Shown here: positions 5,084-50,022 of the stretch, in pieces | Numbering within the stretch: position 1 is the stretch's first letter | Layout: each line of letters opens with the position of its first letter | From: Nitrospira sp. | GTDB taxonomy: Bacteria > Nitrospirota > Nitrospiria > Nitrospirales > Nitrospiraceae | Direction of reading: 5' to 3' | Length of the DNA: 64,000 nt | Assembly (NCBI GenBank): GCA_030123565.1 | Contig: CP126122.1 | Location: 496,001-560,000 of the forward strand | Notes under the pieces: model-generated | The model's input: the letters and a program-made list of their open reading frames with translations, nothing else | The model's database searches: none | Told to the model about the DNA's origin: nothing | Position numbers and translations under genes: made by a program

Positions 5084-5255
5084 CGCCATACGAATTCCGT
5101 CGCATTCCTCTAGTGTGATGTCCTAAAGATTCATGTCATAAGCCCAGCGGTTTGCCCCCTCACCGTCTCCTCTCCCCCGGTGGGGGAAAGGGCAAGGGAG
5201 AGAGGGGGAGCAGCCCACGCAGATCAATGCAACGAACTTCAGAGACAGGACAGTA

Positions 5256-5380
5256 GCAGGATGCTGAAAAAGTCCGCCAGCGGCGTTCTCGCTTCGCTCA
5301 GCGGCTCCACGTACCGAAAGAGTATTCGTCGCCTCTTTGCTTGCTGCGGCCTTGCTGGACGGCCCTTTTGAGCATCCTGC
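5256..5380 (+). repeat. MITE-like palindromic repeat, copy 1
   Basis: A 125-bp element whose ends are imperfect inverted repeats (GCAGGATGCTGAAAAAGTCC against GCAGGATGCTCAAAAGGGCC read from the other end). The whole could fold into a long hairpin. An inverted copy lies at 49862-49988, matching at roughly four of five positions by eye. A second fragment of the same kind (TTTTTCCGCAGCCTGCTAG) ends at 5460, so 5256-5460 may be nested insertions. It contains no credible gene. Confidence 0.75.
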
Positions 5381-5456
5381 AAGAGTATTCTTCTGCCGTG
5401 CCATCATTGTAGGCCATCGGAGTTTTCGAGCGCCAACAGGGTTTTTCCGCAGCCTG

Positions 5457-5501
5457 CTAGTGGTTCGCCTAGGGGCAATGCGGAGGGTGGTGTCTTATAA
5501 C
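5457..5501 (+). promoter_or_regulatory. Palindrome-type promoter for the outer-membrane protein
   Basis: CTAGT-N6-CCTAG (5457-5472), 23 bp, TATAAC (5496-5501). The left half-site is the end of the adjacent repeat element. The predicted transcript start near 5508 rules out upstream start codons for the next gene. Confidence 0.75.
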
Positions 5502-5540: not shown

Positions 5541-6881
5541 ATGAGAATTCCTCAAACGACAATGGATCGCGGTCACGGGGAAATATTCGGCAGGCGGGCC
5601 ATCAGCCTGTTTCTGTGTTCGACGGCTTTCGGTGTGATGCTGTGTGCGGGCTGGGACGGAGTCGCCCAGGCAGAGGAGCCGACGCCTCTGGCCGGTAAAC
5701 CCCATCACACGACCCTGTTCGGCGAAGAAATCTATGTGCCCCCGCGCGATCGCCGCAACGTGACCGCGGCCAGTTTCGGCATTCAGGCGATTCCGAACGG
5801 GCCGAGCCAGATGGAAGTGCTTCCCTTCGGGGCGTTATACGTCTGGCGCAATTGGGATGACGACAACCGCCGATTCCGCGGTACCTTTTCCGGAGTGGTC
5901 AACGATATCGACTACACCATCGGCTTGCGGGAATATCCGAATTGGTCGCTCATCTTTACGTGGGACAATTTCATCCTTCCCCTGGGCCGTTCGGAATATG
6001 TCGAGGGTCAGCGCATCAGGGAAACCGAACTGGAATGGAGCTATGCCTTTGCCGGCGCCGGACTGGGCTATCGACTGCCGGTCCGTCCGTTCGAGCAGGA
6101 CAGCGCATTAAACATGTTTCTCACCTACGAGCCTGGTTATCGCTGGTTCAAGGGAACCACCCACACGTCTCCGCAATACGGCGTGCCGAAGGATACCTAT
6201 GAGGGCCGGATCCATTTTCGCCTTCGCATGGACGCGCTGGCCAGGAATCTCATGGAGCTTCCCCATGAAGGATTCACGCTCGGAGGTGATTTCATCCACG
6301 GGCATCGCGCGAGATGGGACCAGTGGGGCGGGGCCCCGTTCGACAAGCCGGATTTCAAAAAGGAGCAGACCTATCTTCAGGCGACGGCCTACGTGCTGTT
6401 TGCAACCGGCCTTCCGTTCATCGAGAGCGAGAAACATCGTCTCATCACCAGCCTCCATGGGGGGATCGGCAAGGATCAGGACCGCTTCTCCGCCTTCCGG
6501 CTTCCCGGGCGGCCGACCGGCTATGAATGGGAGGCCGTGTCCCTGCCCATGATCCACGGTGTGGCCTTCAACGAATTGTTCCCGCGGCGGTATGCCGTGG
6601 CCAACCTGCAGTACCGCTATGAAGCGCTGTTTTTTCTCTACCCCTATCTCGAAGCGACTTGGGGGCTGGTCGAGCGCCCTCGCTTCACGACGGAAGGGGC
6701 TATCAAGAACGTGACGGATTCGCTGCCGACTCTGGGTGGCGGCCTCATTACCGGGGCGCCGTGGAAGTCTCAAATCGAACTGAATTACACGTATAACTTC
6801 GGTATTTTTCGTGATCCCGGCGGCGGGCCGCCGACCAAGGGCGGGCATGGGCTGATTTTCTTCTGGTCGAAACAACTTTAA
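5541..6881 (+). CDS. Predicted outer-membrane beta-barrel protein
   Basis: A 446-residue protein. A long signal peptide (FGRRAISLFLCSTAFGVMLCAG, cut near AQA) is followed by alternating aromatic and polar strands throughout (ALYVWRNWDDDNRRF, YEPGYRWFKG, ANLQYRYEALFFLYPYLE). The end is hydrophobic (GLIFFWSKQL), as in beta-barrels. The sequence suggests 12-16 strands without a plug domain. The start is placed at the ATG at 5541, or possibly 5562; neither has a strong ribosome site. Reading further upstream is ruled out by the promoter at 5457-5501. The family is not recognised. A transport or surface role is inferred. Confidence 0.75.
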   Translation: MRIPQTTMDRGHGEIFGRRAISLFLCSTAFGVMLCAGWDGVAQAEEPTPLAGKPHHTTLFGEEIYVPPRDRRNVTAASFGIQAIPNGPSQMEVLPFGALYVWRNWDDDNRRFRGTFSGVVNDIDYTIGLREYPNWSLIFTWDNFILPLGRSEYVEGQRIRETELEWSYAFAGAGLGYRLPVRPFEQDSALNMFLTYEPGYRWFKGTTHTSPQYGVPKDTYEGRIHFRLRMDALARNLMELPHEGFTLGGDFIHGHRARWDQWGGAPFDKPDFKKEQTYLQATAYVLFATGLPFIESEKHRLITSLHGGIGKDQDRFSAFRLPGRPTGYEWEAVSLPMIHGVAFNELFPRRYAVANLQYRYEALFFLYPYLEATWGLVERPRFTTEGAIKNVTDSLPTLGGGLITGAPWKSQIELNYTYNFGIFRDPGGGPPTKGGHGLIFFWSKQL

Positions 6882-6969: not shown

Positions 6970-7653
6970 ATGAAGCCCACAGTACTCATCGCCGACGACC
7001 ACACGCTCGTGGCAGAGGGTATCGAAAAACTTCTGGAGCACGATTTTCAATTATGCGGCAGGGTTGCCGATGGGCGGGCACTCGTCAAGGCCGTCGAGCA
7101 GTACAAGCCGGATATCGCCCTGGTGGACATCGCCCTTCCGTTGCTCAACGGTCTCGATGCCTGCCGCCAAATCAAAAAGGCTGCCCCGGAGGTCAAGCTG
7201 CTCATTTTGACGATGCACGGCGAGCAGTATTTCGTGACCGAAGCCTTCCGTGCCGGAGTCTCGGGCTATATGTTGAAACAATCGGTGGCGGAAGAGTTGA
7301 TCTTTGCCATCAGGGAAGTCTTGAAAGGGCGGCTCTACGTCTCGCCCAGTGTGGCGGAGAATCTGGTCGAACAGGCGCTGCACCCGGACGAAGGCGGACC
7401 CTCACGCTCCATCGAATCGTCCGGCAAGCTGAGCGCGCGCCAGCGTGAAGTGTTGCAGTTGATCGCCGAAGGACAATCGACCAAGGAAATCGCCTCGACG
7501 TTGAATGTGTCGATCAAGACGGTCGAATTTCACAAAACCCGCATCATGAAACAACTCGGCGTCCATAGCACGGCCGAACTTACCAAACACGCCATCGCCA
7601 TCGGTCTCATCGCCATGCCGCGGCAGCCTACCGTACCTGGTCCTCAGGCCTAG
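6970..7653 (+). CDS. NarL/FixJ-family response regulator (LuxR-type HTH)
   Basis: A 227-residue two-domain regulator. The receiver domain covers residues 1-120: acidic pair DDH at 9-11, phospho-acceptor Asp in ALVDIALPLLNG near 52, Thr in LILTMHG near 79, Lys in YMLKQS. The LuxR HTH is at about 155-215 (LSARQREVLQLIAEGQSTKE, then VSIKTVEFHKTRIMKQLG). It should bind DNA as a phosphorylated dimer. No kinase is adjacent, so it may take phosphate from the HisKA_3 kinases encoded 9-23 kb away. It converges on a second regulator with an 11-bp gap. It is a candidate activator of the shared palindrome; this is inference. Confidence 0.93.
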   Translation: MKPTVLIADDHTLVAEGIEKLLEHDFQLCGRVADGRALVKAVEQYKPDIALVDIALPLLNGLDACRQIKKAAPEVKLLILTMHGEQYFVTEAFRAGVSGYMLKQSVAEELIFAIREVLKGRLYVSPSVAENLVEQALHPDEGGPSRSIESSGKLSARQREVLQLIAEGQSTKEIASTLNVSIKTVEFHKTRIMKQLGVHSTAELTKHAIAIGLIAMPRQPTVPGPQA

Positions 7654-22621: not shown

Positions 22622-22666
22622 CTAGGGGTTCCCCTAGTCTGTCACTTTATCGGACAAGCCTATAGT
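22622..22666 (+). promoter_or_regulatory. Palindrome-type promoter for the HAMP-array kinase
   Basis: CTAGG-N6-CCTAG (22622-22637, perfect; flanks AACTAGG...CCTAGTC), 23 bp, TATAGT (22661-22666). It is the clearest copy in the window. Confidence 0.85.
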
Positions 22667-22751
22667 ATTTCCCCTCTACTTCTAAGAATCTCTTAGCCGC
22701 TCTCGAATCTTTCTCATCGCGGACTCATGCATGTTGGATCGGAGGACAGAG

Positions 22752-25700
22752 ATGAAGATCAAGTCGAATTCACGATCAGGCAATCGGCAGGCCGCCGGCG
22801 TCGTCCATGACGACAGTCATGATAAGGCCATTCTGCACATCCTCCAAGCGGTCAAAAACGGAGACTTTTCGATGCGGCTGCCGGCTGAATGGACCGGCTT
22901 GGTGGGGAAAATCGCCGATGAAATCAACGGCCTCATTGATTTGAACGCAATGTTCGCGGAAGAATTCAAACGCGTCAGCCATGCGGTGGGCAAGAAAGGG
23001 AAATTGTCCGAGCGGGCGTCGGTGCCGGAGGCGAGGGGCGAGTGGAAAACGAATATTGAGGCGGTCAACGGGCTGATCGAAGACCTCGTTCGGCCGACAA
23101 CGGAAATGGCCCGCGTCATCGGAGCTGTGGCCAAGGGCGACCTGACACAATCCGTGGCGCTGGAAGCGGAAGGCCATCCGCTTCGAGGGGAATTTCTCAG
23201 TACTGCAAAAACCGTGAACAGTATGGTCGGCCAGCTTGACGCGTTTGCCGCGGAAGTCACGCGGGTGGCTCGGGAGGTCGGGACGGAAGGCAAGCTCGGG
23301 GGCCAGGCGGTGGTGCCAGGCGTGGCGGGGACCTGGAAGGACTTGACCGACAACGTCAATTCGATGGCCAGCAACCTGACGAACCAGGTGAGGAACATTG
23401 CGGAAGTGACGATTGCCGTGGCGAATGGTGACCTGTCCAAAAAGATCACGGCGGACGTGCGTGGCGAGATTCTTCAGCTCAAGGACACGATCAACACGAT
23501 GGTGGATCAACTGCGCAGTTTTGCGGCGGAGGTCACGCGGGTCGCCCGAGAAGTGGGCACAGACGGCAAGCTCGGGGGCCAGGCGGTGGTGCCAGGCGTG
23601 GCGGGGACCTGGAAGGACTTGACCGACAGTGTGAATTCGATGGCCAGCAATCTCACGAACCAGGTGCGCAATATTGCCGAAGTGACTGTGGCCGTGGCGA
23701 ACGGCGACCTGTCGAAAAAAATCACGGTGGATGTACGGGGCGAGATTCTCCAGCTCAAGGACACGATCAACACGATGGTGGATCAATTGCGCAGTTTTGC
23801 GGCGGAGGTCACGCGGGTGGCCCGTGAAGTGGGCACGGACGGCAAGCTGGGCGGGCAGGCGCAGGTGCGGGACGTGAGCGGGGTGTGGAAGGACCTGACG
23901 GACAGCGTGAATTCCATGGCGAGTAATTTGACGGCGCAGGTGCGCAACATCGCCGAGGTCACGACGGCGGTGGCGAACGGCGACCTGTCGAAAAAGATCA
24001 CGGCGGACGTGCGTGGCGAAATTCTCCAGCTCAAGGAAGCCATCAACACGATGGTAGACCAACTGCGCAGTTTTGCGGCGGAGGTCACGCGGGTCGCCCG
24101 AGAAGTGGGCACAGACGGCAAGCTCGGGGGCCAGGCGGTGGTGCCAGGCGTGGCGGGGACCTGGAAGGACTTGACCGACAGCGTGAATTCGATGGCCAGC
24201 AATCTCACGAACCAGGTGCGCAACATTGCGGAAGTGACGACGGCGGTAGCGAACGGTGACCTGTCGAAAAAGATCACGGCGGACGTGCGGGGCGAGATTC
24301 TTCAGCTCAAGGACACGATCAACACGATGGTGGATCAACTGCGCAGTTTTGCTGCCGAGGTCACCCGGGTCGCCTTGGAGGTCGGGACGGAAGGGAAGCT
24401 GGGCGGGCAGGCGCAGGTGCGGGACGTGAGCGGGGTGTGGAAGGACCTGACGGAAAGCGTGAACCTCATGGCCGGTAATCTGACCGATCAGGTCCGCAAC
24501 ATTGCCGAGGTCACCATCGCCGTCGCGAACGGTGATCTCTCGAAAAAAATCACCGTGGATGTGCGGGGGGAGATTCTCCAGCTCAAGGAAGCCATCAACA
24601 CGATGGTGGATCAACTGCGCAGCTTCGCCGCGGAGGTCACGCGGGTGGCCCGCGAGGTCGGGACGGAAGGCAAACTCGGAGGACAGGCCGCGGTATCAGG
24701 GGTGGCCGGTACCTGGAAGGACCTGACCGACAGTGTGAATTCCATGGCCAGCAACTTAACCGATCAAGTGCGGAACATTGCCTATGTGACGATAGCCGTC
24801 GCGAACGGCGACCTGTCGAAAAAGATCACGGCGGATGTGCGGGGGGAGATTCTCCAGCTCAAGGAAGCCATCAACACGATGGTAGACCAACTGCGCAGCT
24901 TCGCCGCGGAGGTCACGCGGGTCGCGCGCGAGGTCGGGACGGAAGGGAAGCTCGGGGGCCAGGCGCAGGTGCGGGATGTGAGCGGGGTGTGGAAGGACCT
25001 GACTGACAGCGTCAACCTCATGGCCGGTAATTTAACGGACCAGGTTCGCAACATTGCCAATGTGACGATTGCCGTGGCGAATGGTGACCTGTCCAAGAAA
25101 ATCACCGTGGACGTGCATGGTGAAATTCTCCAGCTCAAGGAAGCCATCAACACGATGGTGGATCAACTGCGCAGTTTTGCCGCCGAGGTGACGCGGGTCG
25201 CGCGCGAGGTCGGCACCGAAGGGAAACTCGGTGGACAGGCCATCGTGCCGGGTGTTCCGGGGACTTGGAAAGACCTCACGGAAAGCGTGAATCTCCTGGC
25301 CGCCAACCTTATGACGCAAGTGCGCGCGATCGCCGAAGTGGCGACGGCCGTGACCCAGGGGGACCTCACCAGGTCCATTCAAGTCCAGGCGCGCGGCGAG
25401 GTGGCGGAGCTCAAGGACAATATCAACGTCATGATCCGGACCCTGCGCGCAACGACGGAACAGAACACCGAGCAGGATTGGCTCAAGACCAATCTGGCCA
25501 AATTCACACGCATGATGCAGGGGCAGCGGGATTTGACGACGGTGGGTGATCTGCTCCTGACCGAGCTGGCTCCGCTCGTCAACGCGCAATATGGTGCCAT
25601 TTACCAGCACGATGCCGGGGAGAAACCCTTGCTGCGTCTGCTGGCGAGTTATGCCGGTGAGAATGGGGACATCGTGCCGGACGAAATGAGGATCGGAGTC

Positions 25701-28211
25701 GGGCTCGTCGCGCAATGCGCCCGAGAAAAGCGACGCATCATGCTGACCGACGTCCCTCCCGACTATATACGGATCCGTTCCGGGCTGGGGGAGGCGCAGG
25801 CGCGCAACGTCATCGTATTGCCGGTTTTGTTCGAAGGCCGGACCAAGGCGGTGATCGAGCTGGCGACCCTGTCCGAATTCACTCCGACGCATGTGGCGTT
25901 TCTCGGCCAATTGACGGAGACGATCGGGGTGGTGGTGAATACGATCGAAGCGACCATGCAGACCGAAGGTCTTCTGCAACAGTCGCAAAACCTGGCCACG
26001 GAGCTGCAGGCCCAACAAAAGGAACTCCAGCAAACCAACGAGGAGTTGGCCAAGAAGGCGCAACAGCTTGCGGAGCAAAATGCGGAGGTGGAACGAAAGA
26101 ATCGTGAAATCGAGCAGGCCCGGCATGCGTTGGAAGACAAGGCGCGCGAGTTGGCACTGGCATCCAAATACAAATCCGAATTTCTGGCCAATATGTCGCA
26201 TGAATTACGGACGCCGTTGAACAGCATTCTGATCCTGGCCCAACAGCTCGGAGAGAATCCGGACCGCAACCTCAGTTCCAAGCAGGTGGAGTTTTCCAAG
26301 AATATTCATGCGGCCGGCGCGGATCTCCTCAATTTGATCAGCGACATCCTCGACCTGTCCAAGATCGAATCCGGCACGGTCACGGTTGAGCCGGAAGAAG
26401 TGCTCTTCATGAAGGTGCGGGAGGCCACGGAGCGCAGCTTCCGTCATGTGGCCGAAGCCAGACAGTCGGCCTTCCATATCGAGATCGACCCCCAGTTGCC
26501 CCGCAGCCTCGTGACGGACTTCAAGCGGTTACAGCAGGTGTTGAAGAACCTCCTGTCCAACGCGTTCAAATTTACGTCTCATGGTCGGGTCACATTCAGG
26601 ATCCGCCGCGCCTTGGCCGGCTGGAACCTGGACCATCCGGTGCTCAGCACCGTTCCGACCGTCGTGGCATTCGAAGTGAGCGATACCGGCATCGGCATTC
26701 CGGTCGAAAAGCAGAAGATCGTGTTCGAGGCGTTTCAACAGGCGGACGCGGGGACGAGCAGGCGCTTCGGCGGAACGGGACTCGGGCTGGCTATCAGCCG
26801 CGAGTTGGCCATGTTGCTGGGCGGCGAGATTCGTTTGGTCAGCGCTCCCGGGGAAGGCAGCACGTTCACGCTGTATTTGCCGGAGGCCTACATGGGCCCC
26901 GCGCCGGAGCTGATTCTTCCCAAATTCCAGTCGCAGCAACAGACGCCGTTGCTTGTGCAACAGGCCCATCATCTAGAAGATATTCCGGACGATCGCGAAA
27001 CCATCATGCCCGGCGAACCGACCGTGCTGATCGTCGAAGATGATCCGCATTACGCCCGCGTACTCTTGGGAGCCGTCCGCGAGAAGGGCCTGAAGGGCAT
27101 CGTCACCGCCCACGGCCGCCTCGCCCTGAGCCTGACTCGCGAATACAAGCCGGTGGCCATCACGTTGGATATTTTCCTTCCGGACATGCTGGGTTGGACG
27201 GTCCTGAGCCACCTCAAGCAGGATCCGGAAACCAGGCATATTCCCGTCCAGATCCTGACTGTGGAAGAGGAACGGTTGCACGGTCTCGGGCATGGCGCGT
27301 TCGCCTACATGATCAAACCGACCACAACCGAAGACCTGGGTGACACGTTCGGACGTCTGGTGGACTTCACCAGGCCCAGGCGCAAACGATTGCTGCTCGT
27401 AGAGGACAATGAGATCGAACGCCGGAGTCTCTGCGAGTTGCTGATTCATGACGAGGTGGACATCGTTCCAGCGGACAATGGGGCACGCGCATGGGACCTG
27501 CTCTCCCGGCAGCATTTCGACTGCGTCGTGTTGGATCTGCGGCTGCCCGACATGTCCGGTTTCCAGATCCTCGAACGCATCCGCGAACACGAGGCCTTGC
27601 GCAATATCCCCGTGATCGTCTCGACCGGCAAGGACTTGAGCGAGGAAGAAGAGATTCAGCTTCGGGAACTGTCTCAAGGGATCGTGTTGAAGGGCGTACA
27701 GTCACCCGAGCGGCTGTTGGATGAAGCGACCCTCTTCCTGCATTTGGTGGTGACGCAACTTTCCCCGGAAAAACAGCAGATGCTGGAGCGAGTCCGGCAA
27801 AGCGACGATGCGTTGGTCGGCAAGAAGGTATTGGTTGTGGACGACGATATCCGGAACATTTTCGCCCTCACCAGCCTGCTGGAGCGACATGGGATGGAGG
27901 TGACGAGCTGCGAAACCGGGCGTGAGGCCGTTCAAAAAGTGGAGGATGATGAGGACCTCGACATGGTGCTGATGGACATCATGATGCCGGAAATGGACGG
28001 ATATGAAACCATGCGGCAGATCAGGCAGAATCCGCGTCATCGTCTCCTGCCGATTCTAGCCTTGACGGCGAAGGCCATGAAGGGCGATCGTGAACGGTGC
28101 TTACAAGCCGGCGCGTCGGATTATATCGCGAAACCGGTCAATACCGATGAGTTGCTGGCTCTCCTGCGCATCTGGCTCTATGGGCGCAAGAAAGCCATGC
28201 GGAGACCATGA
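22752..28211 (+). CDS. Giant soluble HAMP-array hybrid histidine kinase
   Basis: About 1819 residues with no transmembrane segment. Residues 1-175 hold degenerate HAMP-like units. Residues 176-912 hold eight 92-residue HAMP repeats, almost identical in protein and DNA (276-bp period). A GAF domain follows at about 916-1070, a coiled coil, HisKA with the phospho-His in [19 protein letters not shown] (about 1150), HATPase (about 1250-1375, [22 protein letters not shown]), and three receivers (Asp in [36 protein letters not shown]). The plan matches group III (Nik1-type) osmosensing kinases of fungi and their bacterial relatives. The ATG at 22752 follows GGAGG. It is followed within 80 bp by another kinase gene. 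Confidence 0.92.
23279..25486 (+). repeat. Eight tandem 276-bp HAMP-coding repeats
   Basis: Units begin near 23279, 23555, 23831, 24107, 24383, 24659, 24935 and 25211. Two linker types alternate: [11 protein letters not shown]-like and [11 protein letters not shown]. Long stretches are identical at DNA level, which points to recent duplication or gene conversion. The last unit is the most divergent and leads into the signalling helix. Confidence 0.9.
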
Positions 28212-36934: not shown

Positions 36935-36979
36935 CTTATACGGCTTTCAGGCTTAGGGTGCAGCTAGGAAGTCTCCTAG
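36935..36979 (-). promoter_or_regulatory. Palindrome-type promoter for the HAD-ATPase gene
   Basis: Minus strand: CTAGG-N6-CCTAG (36964-36979, perfect), 23 bp, TATAAG (36940-36935). The distal CTAG is also the end of the repeat element at 36976-37071. Confidence 0.8.
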
Positions 36980-37071
36980 CAGGATACTCAAAAAGTCCGC
37001 CGCCGGTGTTTTCGCAAGACATTGCCGCCTCACTCTCTCGGCAGCGTTCAGAAACGTGGCTCGCCTGCTAG
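36976..37071. repeat. Degenerate MITE-like repeat bounded by CTAG
   Basis: A 96-bp element starting CTAGCAGGATACTCAAAAAG and ending GGCTCGCCTGCTAG. The left end matches the repeats at 5256 and 49862; the interior is diverged or partly deleted. Both borders are CTAG. Each border touches a copy of the 16-bp operator. Confidence 0.65.
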
Positions 37072-37083
37072 GGAGGTTCCGAG
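37068..37083 (+). promoter_or_regulatory. Weak operator copy upstream of the lipoprotein gene
   Basis: CTAGG-N6-CCGAG, 39 bp before the ATG at 37123. No -10 box stands at the standard spacing. The CTAG here is the right border of the repeat element. Confidence 0.35.
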
Positions 37084-37122: not shown

Positions 37123-38142
37123 ATGAAGAACTCGCAGATGAATGGGACGATCCCTCGACGCGGCACATGGCTGCTGTGCATGATTCTCTGGCCACCGATA
37201 GCACTCATGGGCTGTACGACAGTGGCCGACTCGACCCAGCAGGGACCCGCGACTGAACAGAGCCAGCGTTGTGTTCCCTCCTCGGCCAAGCGCGCTCGCG
37301 CTTTTTCGAGCACCTTCGCCGTTCCATCTGCCCCTCCCACGGCGGCGGCTGCTGCCCGGTTTAGCCCTGAAGCGCTGCGCATAGCGGAAGTGGTGGGAGT
37401 GCTTCCACTCCTCAATGAGATCAGTGAATTGTCAGCATCGTTCCGACAGGAGCCCATCGAGATGTTGATTCGGCGTCAGCGGTTCACGGACCGTATTCTG
37501 TTGACTTTTTTCGAGGTCGCATCGGCCACCGCCGAGATCGTCTGCGAGCGAGATCGAGCCGACCAGGTCGCCGATCGGATCGACGAGGTCGATAGCACAC
37601 GAATCAAGAGCTTGACGATTGCCTCGATTGTGATCGGGAGCATAGCCAGTATCGTCTCCGGAGGAGTGGGCCTTGCGGCAGAGGCGAGCGTTGCCGGTGA
37701 CTCGGCGGATGTGGCCGGCGGGCTCCTGGCCTCCTGGTTTGGAGTGTCCGCGCTTTTCACCCATTCCGAGGTGGAGTTTCATCATGATCGAAACCTCCTC
37801 GAAGAGATTTGGAACGATCCGCAAGAGCCGCAGATGTTTTCACCAGCTCTGTGGCGTTTTCTGCATCGTCCCCAGGCCGCAGGGAGGGATACTCCTCGCG
37901 AGCAGGTCCTCAATGCCTGGCGCCAACCGGGTCGATTAGGCGAACAGGGATCGGGGGACGAACAGCAGAGACGCGCCTTGTTATTCGGCCATAGAGGCCG
38001 GTACACAGCCCCCGACTTACGTGCCAGAGCCTCTATGCTCGAAACACTGGAGTCCTCCATCAGGCTCTTGCATGAAGAATTGGAAGTGCTGGTTCAGGAG
38101 ATGGCCGGTGATGATGCGCAGGTTTCTCGAGGAGACTCCTAA
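37123..38142 (+). CDS. Predicted lipoprotein with hydrophobic hairpin
   Basis: A 339-residue protein. The signal sequence ends in a lipobox (PPIALMGC, Cys at about 31). Residues 95-145 are helical and charged (MLIRRQRFTDRILLTFFEVA). A long hydrophobic glycine-rich hairpin is at about 165-205 (LTIASIVIGSIASIVSGGVG). The C-terminal half is hydrophilic and ends in a coiled-coil-like helix (LESSIRLLHEELEVLVQEM). The start could also be the ATG at 37138. The iron permease-like gene follows after 15 bp, probably on one transcript. No family is recognised; a periplasmic stress or envelope role is possible. Confidence 0.7.
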   Translation: MKNSQMNGTIPRRGTWLLCMILWPPIALMGCTTVADSTQQGPATEQSQRCVPSSAKRARAFSSTFAVPSAPPTAAAAARFSPEALRIAEVVGVLPLLNEISELSASFRQEPIEMLIRRQRFTDRILLTFFEVASATAEIVCERDRADQVADRIDEVDSTRIKSLTIASIVIGSIASIVSGGVGLAAEASVAGDSADVAGGLLASWFGVSALFTHSEVEFHHDRNLLEEIWNDPQEPQMFSPALWRFLHRPQAAGRDTPREQVLNAWRQPGRLGEQGSGDEQQRRALLFGHRGRYTAPDLRARASMLETLESSIRLLHEELEVLVQEMAGDDAQVSRGDS

Positions 38143-48179: not shown

Positions 48180-48899
48180 TTATGGCGCTGCCGGATATTC
48201 GCCGGATGCGCGGTCTCGGGTTCCGTCGCCCTGTGTAGAGACCGAAGATTCTTTCCGTCGAGAAGGGCGATCGTCCTGCGGCAAGAGGACTGAAAGGTTG
48301 ATGCCCAAGGATCGCGCAATCTCGGGCATCATCTTTCGTGTGAATTCGACTATCAGCGCACTCCCCGCCCGCATCAGCACGGTCTTGACCTGCTCCGCTT
48401 CCTGGCCGAGTTCCCGCGACAGGGAATCCCAGATGTTCATTCCGTCCTGAGCCGATCGCCCCGCATGGGACCGTGGTCCGCTGGGATAGTAATCGTACAC
48501 TCCTTCCTCCTTGCCGGACGGTCGTGTTTGCCGATCGGACTCCTGCATGACCCTGGAGCCATGGGCACTTGGCGGGTAATAGGGATAGACCCCCCTGGGG
48601 TGAGCGCGACTGCGCAGTTCTAAAAGTCCTATCGTATAACCGGCGCAGAGGGCTCCCCCCAGCATGAGCCATGGATGTTCACCTACCTTCCGACTGGGAT
48701 CCAGAACCACCTTGGTCTTATCCAGCAGGTGATTGACGTTCTGTGTCGTATGGTCGAGCAGATGTGAAAACGTCATCGTTGCTCCCTCCGTCGTCTCCTT
48801 AATACGCTGTTCGAGTAATTCAAGCTTCTCGGCAATCGCGACTCTCGTATGAACGATGTTTTTCAGGTCCTGGTCGATAGCACGTGTTCTTTGATCCAT
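48180..48899 (-). CDS. Hypothetical membrane-associated protein (DUF3618-like N-terminus)
   Basis: A 239-residue protein. Residues 1-60 are a charged helix (RAIDQDLKNIVHTRVAIAEK). A short membrane segment is near 85 (WLMLGGALCAGYTIGLLEL). The middle is Tyr/Pro/Ser-rich and disordered (GVYPYYPPSAHG, GVYDYYPSGPRSH). A C-terminal helix follows (VKTVLMRAGSALIVEFTRKM). The N-terminus has the look of DUF3618-type proteins. The ATG at 48899 follows GAAGGA and overlaps the end of the holin-like gene upstream, so the two are coupled. Confidence 0.7.
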   Translation of the reverse strand: MDQRTRAIDQDLKNIVHTRVAIAEKLELLEQRIKETTEGATMTFSHLLDHTTQNVNHLLDKTKVVLDPSRKVGEHPWLMLGGALCAGYTIGLLELRSRAHPRGVYPYYPPSAHGSRVMQESDRQTRPSGKEEGVYDYYPSGPRSHAGRSAQDGMNIWDSLSRELGQEAEQVKTVLMRAGSALIVEFTRKMMPEIARSLGINLSVLLPQDDRPSRRKESSVSTQGDGTRDRASGEYPAAP

Positions 48900-49270
48900 C
48901 GGGCATTTTCCTTCAGAGAGTGAATGGCGCGGAACGGCCAGAGTCGTAGGCTCGCCCCCAATTTTGTCGTGTTGTACAGAAGCACGCCGGATCCCACGGC
49001 GGACAATAGTCCCACGATTCCATAACAGGCCCATAAGGTCAGGGGGGTGTACGTGTGGAGCCAATGAACCAGCGTCAGGAGAATGGACGTCGTGGCCATG
49101 AGGCTCAACAGGAAGCCGATCCCGGCTTGAAACAGTCCCAGGACGAACTTGCGGAGTTCGTACTGTATTTCGTGCCGAGCCAGTCTGATCTCTTGCTCAA
49201 AAAGGCTTCGCATGTCGGCGGCAAGACCGCTCACCAGTGCGGCAATCGAGATCGGATGGGGTTTATCCAC
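48863..49270 (-). CDS. Phage-holin-like (PF07332) membrane protein
   Basis: A 135-residue protein. An N-terminal amphipathic helix (LFEQEIRLARHEIQYELRKF) is followed by two transmembrane helices (FQAGIGFLLSLMATTSILLT and LTLWACYGIVGLLSAVGSGV). This is the actinobacterial holin/YqjE-like family, which is not necessarily viral. It starts at GTG 49270 behind AAGGAACG. It stands between an ElaB/YqjD-like gene and the DUF3618-like gene, the usual YqjD-YqjE-YqjK type grouping. Confidence 0.82.
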   Translation of the reverse strand: MDKPHPISIAALVSGLAADMRSLFEQEIRLARHEIQYELRKFVLGLFQAGIGFLLSLMATTSILLTLVHWLHTYTPLTLWACYGIVGLLSAVGSGVLLYNTTKLGASLRLWPFRAIHSLKENARWIKEHVLSTRT

Positions 49271-49740: not shown

Positions 49741-49785
49741 AGAGTAATGTGGCCTTCCGCCTTCCTGAACTGGGCAAAGCCCTAG
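49741..49785 (-). promoter_or_regulatory. Palindrome-type promoter for the ElaB/holin-like unit
   Basis: Minus strand: CTAGG-N6-CCCAG (49770-49785; flanks GAACTGGG on the plus strand), 23 bp, TACTCT (49746-49741). The distal CTAG is the edge of the repeat region. Confidence 0.75.
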
Positions 49786-49861
49786 CAGCCTGTTGAAAAA
49801 TCATTTCCACAGCCTTGAAAGATCGAACCGCAGTGCGTCGCGGACAGGACCAGAAGCGCTC

Positions 49862-49988
49862 ACAGGATGTTCAAAAAGGCCGTCCAGCGAGGCCGCAGCG
49901 AGCGAAGAGGCGAATCGTACTCTGCGCCGTACGTAGAGCCTCTGAGCGACGCGAGAACAAAGCTGGCGGGCTTTTTCAACATCCTGCT
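49862..49988 (-). repeat. MITE-like palindromic repeat, copy 2 (inverted)
   Basis: This copy is in the opposite orientation to 5256-5380 and alike over its full length. Ends are imperfect inverted repeats (ACAGGATGTTCAAAAAGGCC and GGGCTTTTTCAACATCCTGC). The larger block 49782-49990 begins and ends with CTAG and holds an extra terminal fragment (CAGCCTGTTGAAAAATC), so it may be nested. No credible gene lies inside. Confidence 0.75.
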
Positions 49989-50022
49989 AGGCGCATGGCG
50001 CAGCTACGCTCATACGTAGGTG

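Follow-up and report, generated by a model that had tools for sequence, protein, structure and literature searches.

Miniature elements related to IS5-family insertion sequences lie at CTAG words of predicted operators and stop codons in Nitrospira

Results

Three miniature elements adjoin predicted operators

We analysed a stretch of 64 kb of the genome of Nitrospira sp. (assembly GCA_030123565.1; a single contig, CP126122.1, of 4.6 Mb), corresponding to bases 496001–560000 and referred to here as the window; coordinates count from its first base unless marked as genome coordinates. The window contains three miniature inverted-repeat transposable elements (MITEs), with bodies at 36980–37067 (site 1), 5257–5456 (site 2) and 49786–49986 (site 3). 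They are short and non-coding, as MITEs are, with lengths of 88–201 bp and no transposase gene. Their borders read CTAG at five of the six ends and GTAG at the sixth, as a preliminary description of this DNA had counted. That each element touches a copy of an operator-like sequence of the form CTAG-N8-CTAG also holds, in that sites 1 and 2 adjoin an exact copy and site 3 adjoins CTGG-N8-CTAG, a one-mismatch version that is kept in relatives. Given a target duplication of 4 bp, the element proper begins at CAGG, a small correction to the coordinates first assigned.

At site 1, the plus-strand copy of 88 bp (left end CAGGATACTCAAAAAGTCCGCC) lies between target duplications CTAG at 36976–36979 and CTAG at 37068–37071. 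The left duplication is also the right half-site of a predicted operator, CTAGGAAGTCTCCTAG (36964–36979), which faces a minus-strand gene and has a TATAAG starting ~23 bases past its edge. The right duplication is also the left half-site of a second predicted operator, CTAGGGAGGTTCCGAG (37068–37083), which formerly overlapped the first and was parted from it by the insertion. Over 39 nt this copy shares 85% identity with that at 5254, and a folding test found no significant hairpin; it is a short, diverged derivative without the long hairpin of full copies.

Full copies occupy the other two sites. At site 2, the minus-strand copy of 200 bp consists of a long hairpin part (5257–5380) followed by the minus-strand end CAGGCTGCGGAAAAA. 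Its left target copy (5253–5256) now reads GTAG, which presumably derives from CTAG by a later change, and its right duplication CTAG (5457–5460) restores the left half-site of the predicted operator CTAGTGGTTCGCCTAG (5457–5472), located 105 bases before the ATG at 5562 and followed ~24 bases downstream by TATAAC. The plus-strand copy of 201 bp at site 3 has the left end CAGCCTGTTGAAAAA, a right 125-bp hairpin and the minus-strand right end CAGGATGTTGAAAAAG; the hairpin of this copy folds with −62.5 kcal/mol (z −6.6). Here, the target duplications are CTAG at 49782–49785 and at 49987–49990, the former being the right half-site of a conserved GAACTGGGCA[AG]AGCCCTAG and of the degenerate predicted operator CTGGGCAAAGCCCTAG (49770–49785), upstream of two genes: one encodes a small protein on the minus strand (49292 to ~49642), the other is holin-X/YqjE-like (48863–49270). 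A TATA-like −10 element lies ~23–25 bases from the intact operator at all three sites and is weak at site 3.

Relatives carry the uninterrupted target

For all three insertions, orthologous sites without the element were found in Nitrospira relatives, which was the comparison that the preliminary description had called for. At site 1, the empty allele of relative G013 (L143) reads CTAGGAAGTCTC-CTAG-GGAGGTTACGAG with one central CTAG: an uninterrupted CTAGGAAGTCTCCTAGGGAGGTTACGAG stands upstream of the orthologue of gene 37123–38142, where the window has CTAGGAAGTCTC, CTAG-element-CTAG and GGAGGTTCCGAG. Four more relatives show the same unbroken tandem site with small changes. Separately considered, the operator at 36964–36979 is conserved in G013, G010, G008 and G012, with a TTAG variant in G002, and the operator at 37068–37083 is conserved with 0–2 changes in five relatives.

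Upstream of the orthologue of 5562–6881 (site 2), 18 relatives carry an element-free CTAGGGGTTTCACTAG or a close variant. The left half of these CTAG/CCAG-GGGTTTCACTAG-like sites is CTAG in 12/18 and CCAG in 6/18, so that the half-site at 5457, once read as supplied by the end of the element, is the duplicated target. At site 3, 10 relatives are element-free and have GAACTGGGCA[AG]AGCCCTAGTC, with CTGG on the left side in eight and CTCG (CTCGGC) in two. The element-free orthologous sites show that all three elements inserted into CTAG words that were already present in conserved operator-like sites.

The target is YTAR and four bases are duplicated

For each of two MITE queries, we found ~50 matching places in the genome, far above chance, and thus a genuine genome-wide family, which is present in 57 of 61 related genomes. 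Full copies are ~200 bp long, with ends CAGGCTGNNGAAAAA and CAGGATGNTGAAAAAGNCC that follow the pattern CAGG[AC]TGNNGAAAAA, and contain an internal 125-bp inverted repeat with a strong predicted fold. The duplication and flanks were determined on 70 full copies with both ends found, gathered across related genomes.

CTAG flanks alone cannot separate a TA from a CTAG duplication, and copies at other words were therefore examined. The 4-bp flanks are identical in 53/70 copies (CTAG 42, CTAA 4, TTAG 4, TTAA 1 and two others). Furthermore, the outer base at one end covaries with the complement of the opposite end's first inner base (Fisher p = 3.6e-8), compared with p = 0.26 for the same end. The matched non-CTAG pairs together with this cross-end covariation establish a target duplication of 4 bp with the consensus YTAR. 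CTAG accounts for 42/51 YTAR duplications versus 28% of the background YTAR words nearby (p = 2e-13). Hence, the elements insert at YTAR with a strong preference for CTAG, duplicating four bases.

These data also bear on an assignment to the IS630/Tc1-mariner MITEs, according to which the duplication is TA, the terminal inverted repeat (TIR) starts with G or A and CTAG is merely a flank preference. All outer ends, as selected, carry TA, which also stands at the insertion point of IS630/Tc1-mariner MITEs; the genome contains IS630-type DDE_3 genes; and IS630 prefers CTAG. The duplication of those elements is, however, 2 bp, whereas the matched CTAA/CTAA, TTAG/TTAG and TTAA/TTAA pairs and the cross-end covariation demand 4 bp, and none of the four IS630-type DDE_3 loci has matching TIRs, whereas the IS5-family copies do. 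We rejected this model on both grounds and consider it very improbable.

An IS5-family insertion sequence of the same genome shares the core of the terminal repeat

A 1317-bp insertion sequence (IS) is present in two intact copies in the same genome, with a 17-bp TIR, CAGGCTGCGGAAAAACY, and CTAG on both sides; its copy in N. defluvii has TTAG on both sides. The transposase of 363 aa matches DUF772 and DDE_Tnp_1 and scores 285 bits against NF033581, the NCBI model of the IS5 family (cut-off 140). Where a flanking repeat could be found for related ISs of other phyla, it was mostly CTAG as well. The TIR core is common to this IS and the MITE, as is expected of an IS5-family MITE, and the idea of an IS5-type MITE with a CTAG target is thereby borne out. 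ISs of this family (NF033581) resemble the system described here in their DDE transposase, a 4-bp YTAR/CTAG duplication, a length of ~1.2–1.4 kb and TIRs of 16–17 bp; the Nitrospira MITE differs in being geneless and in its long internal hairpin. The TIR of E. coli IS5 differs in sequence from the TIRs found here. The DDE transposase of the IS probably mobilises the MITE in trans.

Classical IS1182-type elements, found via PF13751, were also considered as partner and rejected: several are bordered by CTAG but their TIR (CTAGGAGCCTGTCCGACATTG) differs. Other Nitrospira transposase families found via PF13751 (L118, L119, L120 and L121) have the TIR CTAGGAGCCTGTCCGACATTG or CTAGGAGCCTGTCCGAGTAA and are likewise CTAG-bordered.

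Most copies with long flanks lie on stop codons

Among the copies with long flanks, 19/29 sit exactly on the stop (TAG/TAA) of an open reading frame (ORF) of at least 80 codons, compared with 81/252 control CTAGs (p = 0.0008). A stop word common to two convergent ORFs is occupied by 4/29 copies versus 3/252 control CTAGs (p = 0.003). At L104, L067, L011 and L081, the copy is located exactly at a YTAR that ends two convergent ORFs, each of which keeps its own stop, with the hairpin between them.

The operator-like sites form a local cluster

The window contains 10 occurrences of CTAG-N8-CTAG, where shuffled sequences predict 0.1, and the 4.6-Mb genome contains 19, with 13 of the 19 inside 83 kb (genome 450286–532979; window 2056–36979) that overlap the window. 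Copies are often CTAGGGGTNNCCCTAG-like, and at many of them a TATA-like hexamer starts 22–25 bases from one edge. Three sites of this type could be traced to orthologous promoters in relatives. Judged from sequence, the cluster looks like the clustered regulon of an activator, and a NarL-type response regulator encoded at 6970–7653 is perhaps its regulator.

The genes at the three MITE sites encode (i) an uncharacterised lipoprotein-like protein and a HAD-hydrolase/ATPase at site 1, (ii) a conserved protein without Pfam match at site 2 and (iii) a holin-X/YqjE-like membrane protein operon at site 3; as a set, they agree only loosely with a stress or envelope regulon. A further operator copy (22622–22637) is located ~95 bp upstream of the start of a hybrid histidine kinase of 1826 aa (22731–28211), in which eight 276-bp repeats encode a run of HAMP domains.

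The preliminary description proposed that the element would be steered to stress promoters because CTAG is rare and concentrated in these operators. A stronger version is active steering beyond the preference for CTAG, for instance by protein contact with the regulator or by operator structure. All three window copies do lie in operator half-sites. Within the window, however, 29/34 intergenic CTAGs belong to an exact or one-mismatch operator pair, and three operator insertions out of three are therefore expected from CTAG targeting alone (chance 0.62). Genome-wide, only two of ~55 element ends, a number derived from 61 pattern matches of which a few are spurious, adjoin an exact operator and one more a degenerate operator; both exact ones are those in the window. 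Across relatives, half-sites at ±12 are in excess (15 versus ~5.6 expected), but among 70 empty sites offsets 6, 18 and 30 are about as high, so that ±12 does not stand out from the other multiples of 6, a pattern that probably reflects codon periodicity; operator steering across relatives was rejected accordingly. Two thirds of the copies with long flanks, moreover, are at stop codons. Active steering is thus very unlikely. The flanks are CTAG genome-wide, as had been predicted, while most copies lie far from operators, so that the targeting part of the proposal stands and the steering part fails as a general rule.

Outside the cluster, where operator sites are few, a full MITE copy (genome 2466485–2466691) lies ~60 bases from CTAG-N8-CTAG at genome 2466752–2466767 without contact.

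Discussion

Insertion, the 4-bp duplication, the target preference, an IS partner and the location at stop codons and operators are established by these data. Taking the explanation as a whole, we are confident that the elements are MITEs of an IS5-family IS and that their location at stress promoters results from the local density of CTAG and not from a property of the element. That the CTAG borders, present at most ends and readable as the four terminal bases of an inverted repeat, are the element's own terminal repeat and not its target is scarcely credible, since empty sites have one CTAG without the element and the borders vary in matched pairs (TTAG/TTAG, CTAA/CTAA).

CTAG is scarce in the GC-rich Nitrospira genome, and we propose that it tends to belong to a functional word: a TAG stop on either strand, on both for convergent genes, or a half-site of the local operator. 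The transposase would cut at YTAR, with CTAG favoured, and repair would duplicate the word. With the whole palindromic word doubled, each flank would receive a full copy, and the stop codon or operator would be regenerated. A complete word would remain on both flanks, since TAG inside CTAG reads as a stop on either strand and the local operator has CTAG as its half-site. At site 1, the insertion would have parted two overlapping operators into two complete ones, and at sites 2 and 3 a promoter-distal insertion would have left the operator and −10 element untouched. That the signal at CTAG stays intact is the probable reason why the element can spread with little harm; we infer that the insertions are selectively neutral and that the operators function. 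Whether the element found, or was selected for, a self-repairing target, a palindromic 4-mer that in GC-rich genomes is mostly a two-strand stop or a dimeric operator half-site, is more speculative, and we offer this idea tentatively.

Several points weigh against this explanation. Fragmented assemblies of relatives supplied many of the 70 copies, and 17/70 flank pairs are non-identical, being old copies or having misassigned ends. Stop codons were assigned from ORFs of at least 80 codons in place of curated genes. Some of the control CTAGs are themselves coding, and selection would purge insertions there; selection against insertions within genes contributes to the stop-codon bias, in which target choice is thus confounded with survivorship. 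A simple deletion of the IS does not yield the MITE interior, only ~15 terminal bases being common to both, so that another member of the same IS group could be the exact partner. The promoter-distal position is drawn from a small sample.

The Nitrospira MITE joins a known kind of IS5-related MITEs. Passages on MITEPsy1 of Pseudomonas syringae pv. phaseolicola (PMC3189936) describe insertion after CTAG or YTAA with duplication and a thought origin from an IS5-family element of its own genome, ISPsy2, and a passage of PMC10379815 gives CTAG as the direct repeat usual for IS5. According to the same passages on MITEPsy1 (PMC3189936), that element is 100 bp long, has few copies and carries the TIR GGAAGGTCTGAAAAAGCC, compared with CAGGCTG..GAAAAA in the Nitrospira MITE, and a location at stop codons or operators, a feature of the Nitrospira MITE, is absent from them. 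A literature search with incomplete coverage returned no prior description of a Nitrospira MITE family or of stop-codon regeneration at CTAG.

If the target is indeed self-repairing, two separate and complete operators at the divergent promoter of site 1 could rewire regulation without loss, and the hairpin carried to gene ends might serve as a transcription terminator. Site 1 provides a natural experiment in which two overlapping operators within a conserved regulon were split, and relatives retain clean empty alleles. For the abundance of this MITE family in Nitrospira, the finding would offer a countable rule, namely that the target is a word whose own duplication mends the damage.
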